Position numbers and translations under genes: made by a program. From NCBI GenBank assembly GCA_003216155.1, contig QCJH01000004.1:41070-105069 (forward strand): a DNA stretch of 64,000 nt, written 5' to 3'. Shown here piece after piece: positions 40,666 through 49,647 of the stretch (its first letter is position 1; each line of letters begins with the position of its first letter). Source of the DNA: Prochlorococcus sp. AG-409-A19 (GTDB lineage: Bacteria > Cyanobacteriota > Cyanobacteriia > PCC-6307 > Cyanobiaceae). The notes below the pieces were generated by a model. It was not told where the DNA came from. It did not search any database and saw only the letters and a program-made list of their open reading frames with translations.

Positions 40666-40970
40666 CATGGAGCTGCTTTAGTTCTATATGACTGGCAGAA
40701 TGTATAGGTCTATCTATTGATGGACTAGGTGATTCACACCAGTGTTTCGGACAGCGGTTCGATTCCGCTCAGCTCCATCTATTCCTAAAGAGTCATGGGG
40801 CTGCAATGGTTTCGACGGGACATGAGGAGGGTGACTGAAGCCTGCTCGGTAAGAGCAAACTCGTAACAGCGAACAACATCGTTCGTTTCTCCCGTCAGAC
40901 AGCCCCTGTTGCTGCTTGACCTAATTAAAGGAGATGGGGTGAGGTCAGCCTTATCACCCAAATGACTCGT
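40666..40970 (+). ncRNA. ssrA: Two-piece (permuted) tmRNA
   Basis: tmRNA rescues stalled ribosomes and tags the incomplete protein. The gene is permuted: the 3' acceptor half comes first, ending in the T-arm AGCGGTTCGATTCCGCT and acceptor strand CAGCTCCA at 40777; after 19 bases the 5' half starts with GGGGCTGCAATGGTTTCGACG at 40797. The two acceptor strands pair (GGGGCTG with CAGCTCC). The tag reading frame at 40869-40919 encodes ANNIVRFSRQTAPVAA followed by TGA. This gene form is known for the alpha-cyanobacterial lineage. The left boundary is approximate. CCA is not encoded. Confidence 0.93.
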
Positions 40971-40993
40971 GAGGGCTGAAAGGCCCTCTTTTT
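40971..40993 (+). terminator. Intrinsic terminator of ssrA
   Basis: A GAGGGC stem, TGAAAG loop and GCCCTC stem are followed by a run of five T. It lies directly after the coding piece of the tmRNA gene and on the same strand, so it ends that transcript. Confidence 0.85.
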
Positions 40994-41373
40994 CATTGAA
41001 TAGCAATGGGCCTCGAATTAGATGGAGGAATCTCAAAGCAAGATATTGAAAATTTATCGAAGAGTTGCAAGTAGTCTTCAAAAGACATTGACATCAGTTC
41101 AACTTCAATCTGATTTCATCAGACAAAAATTCTCTTTTTTTCTTACCCTTATAACTAACTTCAGTACACAAGACATTTAAAACAAGATCTAGCGATATAA
41201 GCTATATTTGATGAGGTTGAGAAAATAAGCTATTCGACTTGTAGAGGAAAGGTTACAATTTTGATCAGAAAGAAGATTGATAAATAAACTAGTAATCAGT
41301 TTTCCTCAGAGATGATCATGAGCTTTGTAAATGCTCCGAAAAATATTTAACTAAAACTCATTGAGAATCAGAA
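40994..41373. other. AT-rich space between ssrA and the GSCFA gene
   Basis: This 380-base stretch contains no gene-like open frame in either direction; the longest is a 22-codon plus-strand frame. It has poly-A and poly-T runs and no strong hairpin. It is the left margin of the accessory region and probably holds the promoter of the GSCFA gene. No remnant of an integrase or a second copy of the tmRNA acceptor end was seen. Confidence 0.6.
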
Positions 41374-42456
41374 ATGGCCAAGCATCCCTATATCGATCTT
41401 CCTAAAAGTTCATTTTGGAAAAGCGGCGTAGCCAATGAAGATCCATGTTGCATGCAAGAAATTTACAAGAAGAAATTTCAGATAACTGATAGCTGTCGAA
41501 TTGCTACCGCAGGTTCATGCTTTGCACAGCATATAACCGCTAATCTCAAAGCAAATGGATATCAAGTCCTTGACATTGAGCCCCCTCCACCAGGATTGCC
41601 AGAGCCTCTTCATAAGAAGTATGGATATTCTATGTATAGTGGTCGTTATGGAAATATCTATACTGTTAGGCAGTTACTTCAACTTTTGCAAGAAGTATCT
41701 GGGGCTTGGGCTCCAGAAGATTATATTTGGGAAAGGAATGGCAGATACTTTGATGCTTTAAGGCCAGGAATTGAACCAAATGGCCTTTCTTCTCCAAACG
41801 AGGTTAAAGAACATAGGCAGAGACATTTGCAACTTTTAAGTTGTCTTTTTGCGTCAGCAGATGTTTTTATATTTACGCTTGGCTTAACCGAGGCTTGGGT
41901 ACATAAAGGATCAGGAACTGTTTACCCTACTGCCCCTGGAACTATTGCTGGAAGTTTCAACCCTAAGATGCATTCATTTATAAATTTTCAATTTGCGGAT
42001 CTTATTCACGACTTCAATAGTTGCAGAGCTGTGCTTAGTGTGCTTAGGGAAGGTAAACCTATAAAGATTATTTTAACCGTTTCGCCTGTTCCCCTTACAG
42101 CTACAGCCTCAGGTTGCCATGTTCTTGTGGCAAACACTTATTCAAAATCTGTTCTTCGAGCAGCAGCTGCACAACTCACAAACAATTCTAAGGACATAGA
42201 TTATTTTCCTTCTTATGAGATTGTTACTAATCCAAGGCAACAATCTGCCTCATACCAAGAGAATTTCCGAAGTATAAGAGAGGAATCAGTAAAGAATGTC
42301 ATGAACCATTTCTTCTCTGAACATGTTTCAATTTTTAAGCAGGAGGATTCATTGGATGAATCTCTAATTACCAAGCCAGAAGAGTTATCAGATCAAGTGA
42401 GTTTTGAGTATGACCTTCAATGCGAGGAGGCTTTGTTGGAGGCTTTTGCAGAATGA
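41374..42456 (+). CDS. GSCFA-domain protein (SGNH-hydrolase-like)
   Basis: The protein has 360 residues. Its eponymous motif ATAGSCFAQHI lies near residue 46, followed by the family segments SGRYGNIYTVRQLLQLL and FTLGLTEAW near 168, and NPKMHSFINF near 195; the GSCFA family (PF08885) is a distant SGNH-fold group whose members are usually near polysaccharide and surface-modification genes. The serine of GSCFA is the likely nucleophile and the threonine/asparagine segments the oxyanion residues, but the reaction is unknown. It has no signal peptide or membrane segment. The next gene overlaps it by four bases (ATGA), so a functional pair is likely. Confidence 0.82.
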   Translation: MAKHPYIDLPKSSFWKSGVANEDPCCMQEIYKKKFQITDSCRIATAGSCFAQHITANLKANGYQVLDIEPPPPGLPEPLHKKYGYSMYSGRYGNIYTVRQLLQLLQEVSGAWAPEDYIWERNGRYFDALRPGIEPNGLSSPNEVKEHRQRHLQLLSCLFASADVFIFTLGLTEAWVHKGSGTVYPTAPGTIAGSFNPKMHSFINFQFADLIHDFNSCRAVLSVLREGKPIKIILTVSPVPLTATASGCHVLVANTYSKSVLRAAAAQLTNNSKDIDYFPSYEIVTNPRQQSASYQENFRSIREESVKNVMNHFFSEHVSIFKQEDSLDESLITKPEELSDQVSFEYDLQCEEALLEAFAE

Positions 42457-43187
42457 TCAAAGTTTTAGTTTTTGGGAATTCCCAAGTTGGTTGCATAAAG
42501 GCAGGTCAGAACATTCTTCAAGAAAGGCAAGAGTTAGCTGGCTATGACTTTTACTTTGCCGCATTGCCCGGTGGAGGAATAGGCGGCTTTAAGTTGGATG
42601 GGAATATTTTAAAAGTTAATAAGGAATTGGAGGAGAAGTTGAAAGTTGTCTGGAAATCTGACAGACAAATAGATGTTAATGATTTTGATAGAGTTATAAT
42701 TGCAGCAGGAGATAATCGATTGCATCCATGTTTCTATTACTCTAAACCGCCTTTTAGTCATCTGTCACATTCAGTTATTGGTAAGATTGTTACTTACGCA
42801 GGAATTGATAGAGTTGTAGGACAGCTATTTATGAACTTTCCTGAAAAAATAATTTTCTTAGGAGGTGTACTTCCCTCGGAGGAATGTGTGTCTATACAGA
42901 GCATTAAAACACTTGGGAATGATGATAGGGAAATAATTAAAAGCAATAGCTTAAAAATAAGAGCAGTCTGTGATAGTACTATTGGTTATGGTAAGAAGGT
43001 CGTTAAGTATTTTCTGCCTCCACCTCATGTTTTAAGTGATGTAGGCGTGACTACTAGGAAGAAGTTTATCCGAGGAGGATTAAGTTTTGATGGTATTGGT
43101 AAAAGTCCGGACAATCTTCATGGTAATAAGTCATATGGGTATGAAATTCTGAAGGCTATGATTTCAACAAAAAGTCTTTTCTCCTGA
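42453..43187 (+). CDS. SGNH-like hydrolase, partner of the GSCFA protein
   Basis: The 244-residue product shows distant SGNH-family blocks: VFGNSQVGC at the N-terminus (block I, serine in GNSQ), VIIAAGDNR near 90 (position of block III) and SPDNLHGNKSYG at the C-terminus (block V DxxH). No signal peptide is present. The four-base overlap with the GSCFA gene decides the ATG start. Together these look like two cytoplasmic esterase- or transferase-like enzymes for acylation of a sugar or protein; direct evidence for a substrate is absent. The assignment to a family is moderate. Confidence 0.65.
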   Translation: MIKVLVFGNSQVGCIKAGQNILQERQELAGYDFYFAALPGGGIGGFKLDGNILKVNKELEEKLKVVWKSDRQIDVNDFDRVIIAAGDNRLHPCFYYSKPPFSHLSHSVIGKIVTYAGIDRVVGQLFMNFPEKIIFLGGVLPSEECVSIQSIKTLGNDDREIIKSNSLKIRAVCDSTIGYGKKVVKYFLPPPHVLSDVGVTTRKKFIRGGLSFDGIGKSPDNLHGNKSYGYEILKAMISTKSLFS

Positions 43188-43212
43188 GCTAGATTGTATG
43201 TGGATTAATGCA

Positions 43213-43326
43213 AGAATATACTGATCTGTTTCTTGCCTTAGGGCCAATTTTCTTGGTTATTTAGTAATAATTTATGTTTTCAGTACAGAATTAATGGCGC
43301 TTTGCTATTTGGTAGCTCTAATCTTC
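43213..43326 (+). repeat. Left copy of a diverged ~115-base direct repeat
   Basis: This stretch aligns with bases 49431-49545 in the same orientation at roughly 80% identity over the best 85 bases, with shared blocks such as GGGCCAATTTT, TAGTAATAATT and GTACAGAATTAATG. Together the copies bracket the four-gene operon and the divergent 580-residue gene. It may be an imperfect duplication made when that segment arrived, or the remains of a shared element. Confidence 0.8.
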
Positions 43327-43436
43327 TTTAGATCTGTTTAAGAAGTCTTCTTTCGACCCTTTCCCACTCAAGTTACTACCAACAATATGATTTTATACTC
43401 CTTTAAAACGTAAGCTTTAATAGATAGAATAATTTC

Positions 43437-44552
43437 TTATATTGAATGCCGAGCATTTGCAATTTCAACTGGTTGAAATTTATTTATAGCAGTACAAATT
43501 TCTTGCACTTGAATTCTAGTCATTCTATAATATAAAGGTAGGTAAATTACCTTTTTGCAAAGGCTTTCTATTTCAGGCAGATTATTGTCTTTGTATGATT
43601 TAAATGCTTCCAGGCTAGGAACATATGTTAAACAAAGTTTAGTCTCAATACCATTTTTACTTAGATACTTATGAAGTGATTCAGCAGAATCACTTTGGAT
43701 AGGAAATGTATAAGGTGAAACCTTCTCAGAGCCTTGATCATCTAAAATTTGTATGAATTTCAGTTTTTTTAGATTAGATTGATATATTTTTCTGAGCTGA
43801 TCAAGATGTGCGAAAATCTTTTCCCAGGATCGGAGCTTTTCGGCAATTAGCGAGCATGCTATTGAGTCAGGTTTAAAGTTTAGTGAAGTAGTCGGAAAAT
43901 GAATTTTATCCGGTGTTCCATTATGCCTTAGTGTAAGCAATTGTTTTGTTAATGAAGAAGAATGAATAATTAAACCTAGATCCATTAGGCATCCAAGCTG
44001 TTTCATTGGATTAAATGAAAAAGTTGCTATATCTGACAATTCACCAATTAAATAACCATCACGCTTGGAGCCGAAGGCTTGTGCACAATCCTCTAGAAAA
44101 TAAATATTATGCTCCTTACATATTTTAGATACTGTAAGATGATCAAATGGAATACCACCATGGTGAACCAGAAAAACTGCTGAAACTGAAGTATCTATAT
44201 AAGAAGATAGTATTTGGGGATTAATATTTAGAGTTTTAGGATCTATAGGAAGAAATTCAGGTATCAGACCATTCTCAACGATTGCATTTGAAGTTGCTAC
44301 CCAAGTAATAGGTGAAGTAAGAACTTTGCTGCCTTTTGGAAGGTTTAGTAATTTAATGCCTAGATAGCATGCTGAGGTTCCAGAAGATACGAGATGGGCT
44401 GTACGAGAGAATTTATTACTAAAGCAAGCTTCAGCTTCTTTAACGGAGTTCCCGAGAATTAACTCTCCAGTGGAGATATGTGATTTAAAAATTTCAATAG
44501 CTTTAATGGCATCTTCTTCATTGAGGGAGAGGTCAAAAAAAGGAATCTTCAT
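43437..44552 (-). CDS. DegT/DnrJ/EryC1-family aminotransferase
   Basis: This PLP enzyme usually transaminates a keto sugar on a nucleotide carrier. It has 371 residues with IPFFDLSLNEED at the start, SSGTSACYLG near 56, the PLP-ring partner EDCAQAFG near 155, and the predicted Schiff-base lysine in SFNPMKQLG near 183. The usual acidic GEGG or GDGG turn after the lysine is replaced by GCLMDLG, so it is a divergent member. The ATG overlaps the formyltransferase stop (ATGA). As the last gene of a four-gene unit beside a formyltransferase, it may make the amino sugar that the latter formylates; a dehydratase and a nucleotidyltransferase are missing nearby. Confidence 0.85.
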   Translation of the reverse strand: MKIPFFDLSLNEEDAIKAIEIFKSHISTGELILGNSVKEAEACFSNKFSRTAHLVSSGTSACYLGIKLLNLPKGSKVLTSPITWVATSNAIVENGLIPEFLPIDPKTLNINPQILSSYIDTSVSAVFLVHHGGIPFDHLTVSKICKEHNIYFLEDCAQAFGSKRDGYLIGELSDIATFSFNPMKQLGCLMDLGLIIHSSSLTKQLLTLRHNGTPDKIHFPTTSLNFKPDSIACSLIAEKLRSWEKIFAHLDQLRKIYQSNLKKLKFIQILDDQGSEKVSPYTFPIQSDSAESLHKYLSKNGIETKLCLTYVPSLEAFKSYKDNNLPEIESLCKKVIYLPLYYRMTRIQVQEICTAINKFQPVEIANARHSI

Positions 44553-45157
44553 GAATCTAATCTACTAATATTTACAATTGCTGCTTTTGATAGGTTCTTA
44601 TCATTATATATAGGCTGTTTAATAATTTGATGTAGGAATTGGACGACTAGTGTGTATTCAGAAAGATGTCTCTGATGACACAATTCTGCTTTTGGTTTTG
44701 ATGAGTCAAGGGGAAAAGCTACTTGCCCATAAATTGGACCAGAATCCAGTTCATTGGTTATTTCATGAAGTGTAGCGCCTTGAATGCATACTCCAGATTT
44801 TATGGCCTGTTCAAAAGCATTTAAACCCTTGAATGATGGGAGCAAGCTAGGATGTAAATTAACTAGTTTGATGGAGGAGCTCCTGAAGGATTCTAAATTA
44901 ATAATCTTATCGAATAATAATATTATTATATTGAGATCAAGCTTCTTCGATAAAACAGAAAGCTGTTTGCTACCTGAATCGTTATTTTTCCAATTAATGT
45001 TAATAGTTTTAGGTGTAAACTTTGCTATATCTGGTATTTTGATTGGCTGTTTAGAAGTTGTTATCAGACAATCTATATACTTGGAGATTTGTTCTTGCTC
45101 GATTAATATTCTATTGACTAATGAGCTGCTGGATGAGGTAAGGAATGCGATTTTCAT
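44549..45157 (-). CDS. Formyltransferase of the PurN/Fmt-N type
   Basis: The 202-residue protein transfers a formyl group from 10-formyltetrahydrofolate by family. The catalytic asparagine and histidine are in LVNLHPSLLPSFKG near 97 and the aspartate in ELDSGPIYGQ near 137, so the active triad is intact. It has no C-terminal tRNA- or sugar-binding domain. The genuine purine PurN would normally sit elsewhere in the chromosome and be more conserved; the context between an acetyltransferase-like and a DegT gene favours formylation of an amino sugar or amino-acid derivative. The ATG overlaps the previous gene's stop (TGATG). Confidence 0.78.
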   Translation of the reverse strand: MKIAFLTSSSSSLVNRILIEQEQISKYIDCLITTSKQPIKIPDIAKFTPKTININWKNNDSGSKQLSVLSKKLDLNIIILLFDKIINLESFRSSSIKLVNLHPSLLPSFKGLNAFEQAIKSGVCIQGATLHEITNELDSGPIYGQVAFPLDSSKPKAELCHQRHLSEYTLVVQFLHQIIKQPIYNDKNLSKAAIVNISRLDS

Positions 45158-46068
45158 CAACAGCAATACTTGTGTAACTTGGAAAGAGTAGGATTATTAT
45201 GTAGAGGCATTAAACTTACCTCTGCTTTCGTAGCTAATCTAATTAGAGCCATAAAAATTTTGTTGAAAACTTCTTTACGAGCCTTGCCTGGAAAATACAT
45301 GTATCCAGAATTAATCTCTAGAGTTGAAAATAAACGTTTGAAATATAGCAGCTTTTCCGAGTTCTTCCAATTGTGACCTAAATCAATTAATTTATATTTT
45401 GGTAGTAAACTCCCAGAGCAAAGAGAATGAAACGATAGATTGTTAGGCCTAAGCTTGAGATATGATTGATTAGACCATCCATAGCGGTAATAGAGAATAT
45501 CTTGATGAGCAATTAGGAATATTTCTGAAGCTATGTTATTCGAGTACTTATCTAATGCACGAACTATAAAGATATTATCTTTAAATGTAGGATATATTTC
45601 TTGAGTTATAGATCTGGGGATAGGGACGCGTTTGAATTTCTCATAGGAATATTTCTGATGCGATTCAAAGAAACTGTTGCAATCTTTCGCAGAGGATAAA
45701 ATCTCTATGGCAACATTCTTTTTTGCCTTATTAATTGCTCTCTGAGCAGAAGAACTTCGTGTTTTTTTTATATACTCTGAGGTTTCTGAATAGAGGTGTA
45801 ATGATTGCGATGGGAAAGAAAGGTCCCTATAAGTAGGGCTGAATAGATATTTTATTTTTATTGGCGTATCTAATGTCTTTAGCATATTAATTTGTTCGTT
45901 TATATTCTCATGTGTAATTATCATTGAATAATCAGAGAATGGAAGGGATATATATTTGTCTGAAAAACCTAACTTTAATTTGGCTGCGAAAAAGCCAGGA
46001 AGGATTTCTTGTATTCTAAATGCTTTAGAGAGAATATAAAGCCAGGGTTCTGAAGTGTATAGATTCAC
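45157..46068 (-). CDS. FemAB/GNAT-like acyl- or aminoacyltransferase
   Basis: The product has 303 residues. Its second half has the GNAT/FemAB features FESHQKYSYEKFKR, NIASEIFLIAHQDILYYRYGWS and the C-terminal LIDLGHNWKNSEKLLYFKRLF, which resembles the substrate-side motif of Acetyltransf_6 (BioF2-like) proteins. Such enzymes transfer amino-acyl or acyl groups to amino sugars or peptidoglycan-like acceptors. The N-terminal half has no recognised fold. The start is GTG and overlaps the stop of the radical SAM gene by one base. Composition is AT-rich, unlike the core genes of the window. Confidence 0.6.
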   Translation of the reverse strand: MNLYTSEPWLYILSKAFRIQEILPGFFAAKLKLGFSDKYISLPFSDYSMIITHENINEQINMLKTLDTPIKIKYLFSPTYRDLSFPSQSLHLYSETSEYIKKTRSSSAQRAINKAKKNVAIEILSSAKDCNSFFESHQKYSYEKFKRVPIPRSITQEIYPTFKDNIFIVRALDKYSNNIASEIFLIAHQDILYYRYGWSNQSYLKLRPNNLSFHSLCSGSLLPKYKLIDLGHNWKNSEKLLYFKRLFSTLEINSGYMYFPGKARKEVFNKIFMALIRLATKAEVSLMPLHNNPTLSKLHKYCC

Positions 46069-47120
46069 TAATTTGGTTTAATGAGAAACTCTCCAGCTTC
46101 TCCTAGATAATCTGGCCGTTCCTCTACAGAGAAATCTACATCAAACAATTTACAACCTTGGCAGAAGCTAATCTCATTCCTCATTCCAGTAGCATGCTTT
46201 CTACGTACTTCTGTAAAGCTTCGACTATTCCATATCTCTTCAATAGTATTTAAATTGCAATCACCCATATTCATTTCAGCATCCATATCTTGGCCACATA
46301 AGGGAACTCTTCCACTAGTTGTCACATGAAAAGTTGACCAAGGTGCTATACAAGGATTGCTACGCAACTCCTTGCTATATTTATAAGTTGGGTTTGGATT
46401 CTCGTGCTTATTTCCCCACGTATGTAGCTTTTTAAAGTATATCCGATCTCTATTAGAGCGAATTGGTTCCCAGAATTCATGCCATTTTTTCATTTCATCC
46501 TTAAATTCTGGATCATCCATTGACTTAGTTGCGACCCCTCTAACTCTAATAATGCACTGAGGATTTATCTTGTCCCGCAATGCAAAGAAATTTCTGATAT
46601 TTGATATCACTCCTTCATAACTTAGTCCTTTTCTAAGTTCTTCGTATGAAGACTTGTCCACTGAGTCAATACTTAAAAGAACTTCATTTATCCCTGACTT
46701 TAATAGTGATTCAGCTCGATTTGGGAATAGAAGTGATGCATTAGTGCTTATATTGACGAATCTAATTCCAGCACTCTTTAAATATTTAATTCTTTCATCA
46801 AGCTTGTGATCCATTAGCGGCTCGCCAGCCCTCTGTATATCAACCATGCGAACCCAATCCTTATGATTAATAATTTCATCAGCTACTTTTAGCCATAATC
46901 GATCATCCATAGTTGGGACTGTCTTATCCCACTTGTCGATTGCACAAAATGGACACCTTGCATTGCAAAGCCTGATTGTCTCAATTTGGAAGAACTGTGG
47001 GAACCGATAAGCTTTTTCAATGCTATCTACGGCTAGACGTTTTTCTAATAGCATAATCTCTTCATTAATTTCTGCGCTTATGTCTGTTGCTTCCCCTCCA
47101 GAATTCTTGTTGAGGCGCAT
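46068..47120 (-). CDS. Radical SAM/SPASM protein
   Basis: It starts the four-gene operon. The cluster motif CNARCPFC near residue 53 holds the SAM-binding 4Fe-4S cluster; a TIM-barrel core follows (RAGEPLMD, ISTNASLLF, LLSIDSVDKSSYEEL). The C-terminal SPASM-type domain holds further cysteines (PCIAPWSTFHVTTSGRV then LCGQDMD, GDCNLNTIEEIW and SFCQGCKLFDVD), able to bind one or two auxiliary clusters. No RiPP precursor peptide gene was found nearby, so a role in sugar or small-molecule modification, as known for SPASM sugar epimerases or dehydratases, is possible. A second ATG lies one codon upstream. Confidence 0.88.
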   Translation of the reverse strand: MRLNKNSGGEATDISAEINEEIMLLEKRLAVDSIEKAYRFPQFFQIETIRLCNARCPFCAIDKWDKTVPTMDDRLWLKVADEIINHKDWVRMVDIQRAGEPLMDHKLDERIKYLKSAGIRFVNISTNASLLFPNRAESLLKSGINEVLLSIDSVDKSSYEELRKGLSYEGVISNIRNFFALRDKINPQCIIRVRGVATKSMDDPEFKDEMKKWHEFWEPIRSNRDRIYFKKLHTWGNKHENPNPTYKYSKELRSNPCIAPWSTFHVTTSGRVPLCGQDMDAEMNMGDCNLNTIEEIWNSRSFTEVRRKHATGMRNEISFCQGCKLFDVDFSVEERPDYLGEAGEFLIKPN

Positions 47121-47274
47121 CATACCTTTATTGTTAAGCTAAACATAGCATGGAGTCTATTGGGAAAGCACTTTGCGGTTAACTTTTTAGGTTTTTTTGA
47201 CTTAATTTTGTTTGCGGCTTTATACTTGAAAAGCACTTTCAATGCTCAGGCCAGGCTGACGGTATTCAATTACT

Positions 47275-49017
47275 ATGCTTTATGGAAAGAAGCTAGATAC
47301 GGAAGTAGAAACTGCTAATAAAGTCAGGTTTATGCTATCAATTGAGATACAGATCCTACTAGCAGTAAAACAATCTTTGGTTTTAGATTCAAGACGTAAC
47401 TTACAAGAAATTCTAGATATTGATATTTATGGCGATTCAACTTGGGAGGAAAACTTTGACAAGATATTTTGTTTCCTGCTTTCTAATCCTGAAAAATATA
47501 TGTTATTTCAGCAATCAATTCATAACCAAAGATCAGATGACCTCTTTCAACAGAATAAAAGCGAACTAGTTATTTTTAGAGCCATAAGAGATTTATTGAG
47601 CTTTAGATTAAATTTAGATAATATTCTAACTATATTGCGATCAATACAGGTAGTCGCTAACCCAGTTAGTATGGAGGATTCAAAAATACTCAATCTCTCT
47701 TATAAGCTATTAAAGTTAGTCTGGAAATACTCGGGTGAGATGTTTCCTTTTCTTGCAGATGCTTTGTACAGGCATTATATGGAGATTCCGGATTTATATG
47801 CAATGAACAGACTTCGGGAGGTAATTTCTAGGGAAAGAAAAGATGAAGAAGTTCAACATTTCAGAGGATCAATATTTTATGCTTTTGGACATCAATATAA
47901 GTTCCTTGATATTATTCACAAATTGTATTTGTCCTTTCCCGAATTTAAATATCATTTTTATACGGACTTTGATTTATCTGCAAATTCAGCGTTAATGGCA
48001 CTACAAAAGGAAGCTGGAATTCAAATAGATCATAAAAGCTCTTTGACTATTTCCCCTGCACAGGCAAGGAGTTGGAATTTTCTTGTTAGTTTGAGAATTC
48101 CTGGACAAGAGAGTATTGGAGAATTTGCAAATAGATTAAATGATGATTATGTTATAGATAATGAAGCAATTGATAAATTCTGTTTTAATGAAGACGAGCT
48201 GGAATCTTTAGCCAACAGCTTTTATTTTTTCAAGGACAATAAGCGCAGTCCTATTATTAGTAAACCTGATAAACCTATTTTTCAGAGTCAATCAATTAAG
48301 AAGATGTTAGATATTACTGACAAATTTATTCTAGTGCAATGGAGGTCTAATACTTACAAACAAGAAAGTACAAACTTCAACCAACATCGTAATAGTAATG
48401 AATCAGAAGTTCTTAAAGCATTGCTTGAATTTTCGGTTAAATATCAAGTACATATTTATATAGCTTGTGATATTGATCAGAGGTTCTTAAGCTTAATTGC
48501 TGGCAATAAGTTTTTACACTATGAGAAGGACTTCTCAGCAGTAAGTTGCGAGGAATATATTTACCTCTTGTCAAGGTGTTTTTTCTTTTTTTCCGGTCCA
48601 TCTGGGGCAATGTCTTCAGCTTCTGTACTGTTCCATCGTCCCACGCTTGTATTTGATCATCCACCTTTCTTTAATTTGGCTTATCATCCATTTTCTTGGT
48701 ATGTAAGTTCTGATCTTTATAAAAATAATGAGAGTTTGTCACTGCCAAGAGATTTCCTAATTCACAAATACCCTCAGAATTCTTTGTCACTAAGAAAGTC
48801 TAAAATATGGATTAAGACTTTAGCAAAATCAGAATTATTTAGCTCCTTGGAGATATTTTACTTGTCTTTATTAAGATCATCTCCAGAAAATATACCTTGC
48901 TTTGATTTCGACCCGTCTAGAGTAGACCTTGCTATTCACTTATTGTCCAATGAATTAAAACCGGAAAAAAGGATATTGAAAGGCAAGTCTATCTTTATGC
49001 GCAAACCAGATTTTTAA
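47275..49017 (+). CDS. Glycosyltransferase-like protein (TIGR04372-like), 580 residues
   Basis: The C-terminal half (from about 350) has the pattern of the TIGR04372 putative glycosyltransferases: FILVQWRSNTYK, a RNSNESEVLKALLEF stretch that recalls the RN-x-Y motif, and FFFFSGPSGAMSSASVLFHRP near 440, followed by DHPPFFNLAYHP. The N-terminal half is helical, unlike any family I know. The signal is weak, so this is a guess at fold. It reads divergently from the radical SAM operon across a 150-base space that must hold both promoters, and its low G+C matches the operon. Confidence 0.5.
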   Translation: MLYGKKLDTEVETANKVRFMLSIEIQILLAVKQSLVLDSRRNLQEILDIDIYGDSTWEENFDKIFCFLLSNPEKYMLFQQSIHNQRSDDLFQQNKSELVIFRAIRDLLSFRLNLDNILTILRSIQVVANPVSMEDSKILNLSYKLLKLVWKYSGEMFPFLADALYRHYMEIPDLYAMNRLREVISRERKDEEVQHFRGSIFYAFGHQYKFLDIIHKLYLSFPEFKYHFYTDFDLSANSALMALQKEAGIQIDHKSSLTISPAQARSWNFLVSLRIPGQESIGEFANRLNDDYVIDNEAIDKFCFNEDELESLANSFYFFKDNKRSPIISKPDKPIFQSQSIKKMLDITDKFILVQWRSNTYKQESTNFNQHRNSNESEVLKALLEFSVKYQVHIYIACDIDQRFLSLIAGNKFLHYEKDFSAVSCEEYIYLLSRCFFFFSGPSGAMSSASVLFHRPTLVFDHPPFFNLAYHPFSWYVSSDLYKNNESLSLPRDFLIHKYPQNSLSLRKSKIWIKTLAKSELFSSLEIFYLSLLRSSPENIPCFDFDPSRVDLAIHLLSNELKPEKRILKGKSIFMRKPDF

Positions 49018-49430
49018 TTTATTTTATACCGAATAGCATCTACTTTTAGCTTCATCCTCGGTTAACCTGAAACATGCAACTGGGTAAAATTAATAATGGC
49101 TAGCCTTTGCCACCTTTTTTCTCTCTATCAGATTTAGTTATAAGAAGATTGTTGCTTAATCGAAAATTCAAAGATTTTAAGGCTATTTTTTGTGAGTTTT
49201 TCTTAGAAATTTTTTCTTAGGTGACGTATTCCTTTTGCGACTTAATCTTGCAATCGATTAAGGGGTAACTAGTAGGAAGTAGTTTAATTGAGAAAGATTA
49301 GGCCTTAATGATATTAGTAAAAATGCATTCAATCTTCATAGCATTAATACATATACTTGTTAAATTCTGAATACTATGATCTTAACTAAAAATCTTTTCC
49401 CTTAAGCAAGATCTTTTGACGTTTATTTTG
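49018..49430. other. AT-rich space at the right margin of the accessory region
   Basis: No gene-like open frame is present in these 413 bases on either strand. The stretch has several poly-T runs and a few short inverted repeats (for example around AATTTTTTCTTAGG at 49200-49225), but no terminator with a clean stem. It separates the 580-residue gene from the right repeat copy and trxB. Degenerate gene remains were looked for and not recognised. Confidence 0.6.
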
Positions 49431-49545
49431 AGAATATAGTGATTGCACCCTTTTCTCGGGGCCAATTTTTTGGGCTATCTAGTAATAATTGTGGTTTTTT
49501 GTACAGAATTAATGACGCGTTGGCCTTTGGACCTCCAATCTTTTT
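49431..49545 (+). repeat. Right copy of the diverged ~115-base direct repeat
   Basis: It is the partner of bases 43213-43326 and lies within the 5' flank of trxB. The shared sequence starts at AGAATATA and ends at CCAATCTT. A GTG-initiated open frame (49439-49675) covers it, but the differences between the copies are mostly replacement changes, which argues against a conserved protein. Confidence 0.8.
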
Positions 49546-49647
49546 TTTATTCAGTAGTCTGAATCAAGAAACGGCGGCTTGTCACAGCTTGCTTAGAAAG
49601 CCTTATGGAGTGCCATTTGTGACCAAACAGCACTCTCAAAGACCAAA

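Follow-up and report, generated by a model that had tools for sequence, protein, structure and literature searches.

How might an amino sugar be made where an aminotransferase and a formyltransferase are encoded side by side and no sugar dehydratase is seen nearby? This question is raised by four minus-strand genes in a 64-kb stretch of DNA from Prochlorococcus sp. AG-409-A19 (contig QCJH01000004.1; the whole stretch is hereafter the window), which encode, from 5' to 3', a radical S-adenosylmethionine (SAM) enzyme, a FemAB-like protein, a 10-formyltetrahydrofolate (10-formyl-THF) type transferase and a DegT aminotransferase (Table 1). An earlier, sequence-only reading had proposed an N-formylated and further acylated amino sugar of the cell surface as the product, and had noted the dehydratase as a gap. 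What matters most was not pointed out in that reading, namely that the radical SAM enzyme and the DegT aminotransferase occur as a pair across genomes. On the whole, the operon is read here, with a probability of about one half, as a small set of genes, located on an acquired island, whose enzymes would make and cap an amino sugar or amino cyclitol destined for a surface glycan.

The radical SAM and DegT pair across genomes

The radical SAM family was followed in 24 genomes, made up of 14 genome loci together with the class of G002, in which 2 of 248 genomes carry the family (one being that of L002), and the class of G001, in which 10 of 48 do (one being that of L001). According to a list compiled by hand from gene positions, 15 of the 22 genomes with counted DegTs have a DegT gene no more than 6 kb from the radical SAM gene, while 0.8 would be expected if the genes were evenly spread; this null is weak, since both genes favour polysaccharide clusters. 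Within the stretches examined, G004 and G012 have no DegT gene. Subfamily specificity is stronger evidence for the pair than the proximity count: the neighbouring DegT belongs to one subfamily in 11 of the 24 genomes and to another in 4 more. A tree of 52 DegTs places the window DegT with all 11 members of the former subfamily and with L138 (support 99/98); L138 had been labelled background, and its contig also bears a radical SAM family gene at a distance of about 8.4 kb. Because the window DegT is a long branch in this tree, its placement was also checked by score, and its ten best matches among the 57 DegTs compared are 10 of the 11 subfamily members. These ten outscore 39 background DegTs from the same genome set, and the eleventh (L005, an overlong frame) ranks 24th. 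Because 40 background DegTs had been chosen manually among the matches listed, they lean towards high-scoring ones; one of them, L143, is L005's own DegT and was excluded from both comparisons. L112, L114, L122, L133, L136 and L141 were left out of the tree over the choice of frame, and the scores used all 39. The tree row L014_adj_3 is another DegT of L014 filed under another label, which affects the group counts of the tree. Among named phyla, the subfamily is represented in Pseudomonadota, Schekmaniibacteriota, Cyanobacteriota, Chloroflexota and Latescibacterota, and further rows are from the classes of G001 and G002. No description of the pair was found in searches of an open-access library, a scope outside which most subscription journals lie; the radical SAM mention in PMC9716671 concerns the Nit1C cluster and not this pair.

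The commonest neighbour order of the family is DegT, WbuC cupin, radical SAM, and these genes are neighbours in L003 (with a methyltransferase gene between them), L005, L009, L014, L100, L102, L103 and L108, WbuC being assigned by profile match for L003 and L008 and by similarity to the L003 protein at the other loci. Genes for DegT, WbuC cupin, FkbH, glycosyltransferases and methyltransferases, of the kinds that belong to surface polysaccharides, accompany the family. Surface-glycan surroundings are found at L003:1128-12039, L014:2737-12017, L004, L005 and L008, with a varying complement of a transketolase pair, a zinc dehydrogenase, WbuC, FkbH and methyltransferases. A second recurring set was also observed (Table 1), in which another radical SAM/SPASM gene stands with a NeuD-like hexapeptide acyltransferase and a DegT of another subfamily. 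By appearance, this set applies the same logic with an acetyl group as the cap.

A formyltransferase stands beside the radical SAM family at 1 of the 14 genome loci (L002) and in none of 11 further stretches, some of which end at contig ends; the one FemAB-like relative found beside the family is in L002 as well. This planctomycete locus holds all four classes of gene, in the order DegT, NeuD-like, radical SAM, formyltransferase, FemAB, which is not that of the window. Of the 57 DegTs scored against that of the window, the one from L002 comes last, and its formyltransferase neighbour is of a longer type with a C-domain; since both belong to other subfamilies, L002 supports the combination of functions and not descent of the operon. 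As a homologous copy it was rejected for these two genes and kept for the radical SAM and FemAB genes, and the four-gene set was found as a homologous operon nowhere else in what was searched.

Close copies of the radical SAM gene (E 1e-80) were found in 0 of 350 sampled genomes in the family of G278, the window's apparent family, and by this measure no sister strain with the operon, broken or whole, was found among them. Distant relatives (E 1e-30) occur in 6 of the 350, and two of their six surroundings hold one more class, DegT-like genes in L161 and a formyltransferase-profile match in L164 (E 8e-33), which is perhaps a housekeeping enzyme. In a wider sample of 386 cyanobacterial genomes, one has a close copy (G008), and there are three distant ones. 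Viral contigs gave three distant matches to the radical SAM profile (23% identity) and no match for DegT, while phage records gave one partial match (28.8% identity over 34% of the query). Moreover, there are 30 matching plasmid records, of which 20 were listed, with identity below 60% throughout, and in one plasmid record DegT lies directly ahead of a radical SAM gene.

The operon and its four enzymes

The overlapping arrangement first described for the four genes was borne out: the junctions in gene order are TAGTG and TGATG, each with a 1-base overlap, and ATGA with 4 bases, there are no internal stops, and both the intact frames and the coupling are confirmed. At the local GC content of 0.348, the chance probability of frames this long is 5e-12 for the radical SAM gene, 2e-10 for the FemAB-like gene, 3e-7 for the formyltransferase gene and 1e-12 for the DegT gene. 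A divergent gene for a 580-residue protein begins 151-154 bases ahead of the radical SAM gene, and a convergent gene of 255 codons ends 249 bases past the DegT gene, so the four genes form a self-contained unit. Consensus scans for promoters (14 vs 16.7 in shuffles, standard deviation 4.3) and terminators (4 vs 2.9, standard deviation 2.0) stayed within one standard deviation of the shuffles.

The radical SAM enzyme matches PF04055 (E 3.2e-16), and its cluster motif CX3CX2C (C52/C56/C59) is kept in 146 of 146 aligned rows. It had been taken for a SPASM enzyme, and the Pfam SPASM profile does match its C-terminus (E 6.3e-11). SPASM proteins, which have two auxiliary clusters, carry the seven-cysteine motif CX9-15GX4C-gap-CX2CX5CX3C-gap-C (PMC6231123). 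Only C257, C275, C320 and C323 are present here, kept in 145-146 of the 146 rows, and past C323 no alignment column has a cysteine in more than 20% of these rows. A complete SPASM enzyme was ruled out by the missing cysteines of the second cluster, so that the radical SAM assignment stands and the SPASM label has to be narrowed to a Twitch protein with one predicted auxiliary-cluster site. The spacing of the four auxiliary cysteines (18/45/3) equals that of BtrN, which is the best match among solved structures whether sequence profiles or VIA fold comparisons are used, and the fold match spans the whole chain.

The DegT protein (PF01041, E 2.1e-58, 198.7 bits vs a cut-off of 19.8) is as divergent as had been supposed, its highest identity to the 51 other rows of the tree being 28%; nevertheless, its catalytic motif is kept, with K184 as the Schiff-base lysine and D155 as the aspartate of the pyridoxal phosphate pocket, both assigned by motif. 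Its best PDB match is a glutamine-scyllo-inositol transaminase.

The formyltransferase matches PF00551 (Formyl_trans_N, E 4.5e-21) and has the intact Asn-His-Asp triad expected of it (N100, H102 and D138), which is shared by PurN and sugar N-formyltransferases. It is nearer to PurN than to the latter, and it reaches the equivalog cut-offs of neither: PurN gave 68.1 bits vs 150.1, ArnA 31.6 vs 777, PRK06988 30.7 vs 316 and PRK07579 24.3 vs 238. In addition, its glycine loop reads LTSSSSSLVN where the consensus is LASGxGSN, a loop also altered in P0003, the sole listed relative with more than 40% identity over most of its length. An ordinary PurN was ruled out by the score and the loop. Since the triad is kept, the cut-offs are failed and the loop is altered, the protein probably derives from PurN and serves a different amine.

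The FemAB-like protein appears nearly an orphan. A large protein search, which depends on 5-residue words in common and has limited reach, found only the protein itself at E 0.001, Acetyltransf_6 (PF13480) stayed below acceptance (E 0.23, 12.0 bits vs a cut-off of 22), so that no Pfam family could be assigned, and an AlphaFold2 model built from two rows had a mean predicted local distance difference test score (pLDDT) of 38.6. The acyl- or aminoacyltransferase assignment, which the Pfam cut-off does not grant to the protein itself, is upheld through homology to the protein at L002:9952-10980 (E 3e-11 in a single comparison, 22% identity over 274 columns), an accepted member of PF13480 (E 3e-13) that also matches TIGR03019 (E 3.8e-14, 52.5 bits, under the cut-off of 260).

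Table 1. Operon genes, surrounding features of the window, and loci of the second recurring set (positions of the latter are within each locus)
Feature	Position	Strand	Remarks
Transfer-messenger RNA (tmRNA) gene, permuted, cyanobacterial	40688-41010	+	ARAGORN; RF01851 305.6 bits
GSCFA-family protein	41374-42456	+	PF08885 E 4.5e-49; island gene
Uncharacterised protein	42420-43187	+	255 aa as listed, 243 aa counted after the GSCFA stop; convergent with the operon
Direct repeat, left copy	43043-43329
DegT/DnrJ/EryC1 aminotransferase gene	43437-44552	-	371 aa; last gene of the operon
PurN-like 10-formyl-THF-type transferase gene	44549-45157	-	202 aa; altered glycine loop
FemAB/GNAT-like acyl- or aminoacyltransferase gene	45157-46068	-	303 aa; GTG start
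Radical SAM gene	46068-47120	-	350 aa; first gene of the operon; in-frame ATG at 47123 adds one residue
580-aa protein	47275-49017	+	Divergent; TIGR04372 glycosyltransferase E 5.4e-8, 32.5 bits, under cut-off 45; no Pfam family
Direct repeat, right copy	49261-49546
Second set, L102	1727-4682
Second set, L103	1126-4045
Second set, L002	4903-7964
Second set, L006	4804-7703
Second set, L007	4823-7705

The island and its flanking genes

The window appears picocyanobacterial by its gene content, and its best hemB DNA matches (75%) are to G278, G155 and G241. In the family of G345, which we guess to be a non-photosynthetic sister lineage, hemB matched 7 of 182 genomes over short stretches only, and this is not the family of the window. 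GC content falls to 0.33-0.38 across about 41-50 kb, compared with 0.40-0.45 on both sides; by third-position GC, the island genes are not clearly set apart. The tmRNA gene is probably the left edge of the island. It adjoins the same RNA methyltransferase-like gene in all six relatives examined for its surroundings (G278, G128, G179, G241, G203 and G155). In G278, the order from tmRNA to trxB is kept with about 33 kb between them and no match there to the operon genes; the distance, settled for three of the six relatives, is below 35 kb in G278 and about 155-160 kb in G128 and G179.

A direct repeat (72% over 287 bases) brackets the operon and the gene of the 580-residue protein. Its right copy is a decayed 3' end, with several stops, of the gene to which the left copy belongs, and the repeat has the look of a mark left behind when the segment arrived. 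The dip in GC, the tmRNA edge, the comparison with G278, the bracketing repeat and the lack of close radical SAM copies in the 350 sampled genomes together point to the arrival of the operon segment from outside by recombination. The 580-residue protein is possibly a partner of the operon in the island. The GSCFA gene, also in the island, overlaps the following gene, for whose product no Pfam or NCBIfam family was found.

Proposed chemistry, alternatives and meaning

The usual entries to amino sugars are sugar dehydratases and NAD-dependent (nicotinamide adenine dinucleotide) dehydrogenases. No nucleoside diphosphate sugar dehydratase was seen on reading the open reading frames of the window, no profile search having been made for one. 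BtrN is an alcohol dehydrogenase that yields a ketone, and by analogy the radical SAM enzyme is a possible source of the ketone for DegT; in that case the operon need not hold a dehydratase, just as none is needed in butirosin biosynthesis. We infer the following reactions, their order, the substrate, the product and its surface location. The radical SAM enzyme would abstract a hydrogen from a sugar substrate, at a carbinol carbon, and pass the second electron to its auxiliary [4Fe-4S] cluster, giving a ketone, which DegT would transaminate. The formyltransferase might then N-formylate the new amine from 10-formyl-THF, while the FemAB-like protein may add a further acyl or aminoacyl group, or act on a second amine. 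More specifically, and tentatively, the radical SAM enzyme and its own DegT may represent an undescribed, phylum-crossing and dehydratase-free route to amino sugars of surface glycans; in this island, a PurN formyltransferase with a new function and the FemAB-like protein would complete the pair and cap the amine, the cap perhaps being an N-formylated aminoacyl residue from tRNA.

Among the nearest described systems is the butirosin pathway, where 2-deoxystreptamine is likewise made with a DegT-type aminotransferase, and both the Twitch architecture and the best PDB match of the window DegT recall it. However, the window enzyme is longer than BtrN, with an N-terminal extension and another residue at the position of BtrN Arg152, and its context is surface polysaccharide rather than an antibiotic, with a formyltransferase and a FemAB-like protein added. 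The loci with DegT, WbuC and radical SAM share both the radical SAM family and the DegT subfamily with the window, and differ in that WbuC, in several cases with a transketolase pair, zinc dehydrogenase, FkbH or methyltransferases, stands where the window has its formyltransferase and FemAB-like genes. What weighs against a single four-enzyme pathway is that elsewhere the genes are partly apart: radical SAM and DegT do keep together, but formyltransferase and FemAB-like genes are usually absent beside them. The N-formylated, further acylated surface amino sugar is still the most economical reading and gains from the surface-polysaccharide context, although no homologous four-gene set backs it.

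An unlikely but serious alternative is a conventional route to an N-formyl deoxy amino sugar, with the dehydratase encoded elsewhere in the genome, DegT and the formyltransferase acting as in VioA/VioF or QdtB/QdtF, and the other two proteins modifying another glycan residue. The N-formyl amino sugar pathways of the VioA/VioF, QdtB/QdtF and WlaRD type do combine a DegT with a 10-formyl-THF transferase of intact triad, the window DegT matches QdtB (3frk, E 4e-38) and the PseC model (E 1e-40, under the model's cut-off), and the formyltransferase matches WlaRD (E 2.5e-10). Yet the latter is PurN-sized, the closest DegT kin among those compared are found near the radical SAM family, where a formyltransferase is rare, and the dehydratase that such a route requires was not seen, by reading only, in the window.

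It is less probable that the radical enzyme, still acting upstream of DegT, is an epimerase, dehydratase or deaminase on an activated sugar, for which NeoN, AprD4 and DesII are the models. DesII and DesV of desosamine biosynthesis are indeed a radical SAM and DegT pair, but the sequence profile prefers BtrN over all other PDB entries and DesII is not among its matches at E 0.001. The full four-cysteine auxiliary site is, moreover, that of BtrN, in which it has been proposed as the electron acceptor. That the four genes are chance cargo of the island with no common product, as a gene end on one side with its decayed remnant on the other, and an order not found elsewhere in what was searched, might suggest, is very improbable given the gene overlaps, the occurrence of radical SAM and DegT side by side in five named phyla, and the recurrence of formyltransferase and FemAB beside the radical enzyme in L002.

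If the BtrN-like route holds, an oxygen-sensitive radical enzyme would fill the ketone-forming role in an oxygenic cyanobacterium and in surface clusters from five or more named phyla. This would account for clusters in which a DegT stands without a ketone source nearby, and it would predict new amino sugars. Since the surface glycans of picocyanobacteria are the surface that phages contact, the chemistry of this pathway would bear on host range.

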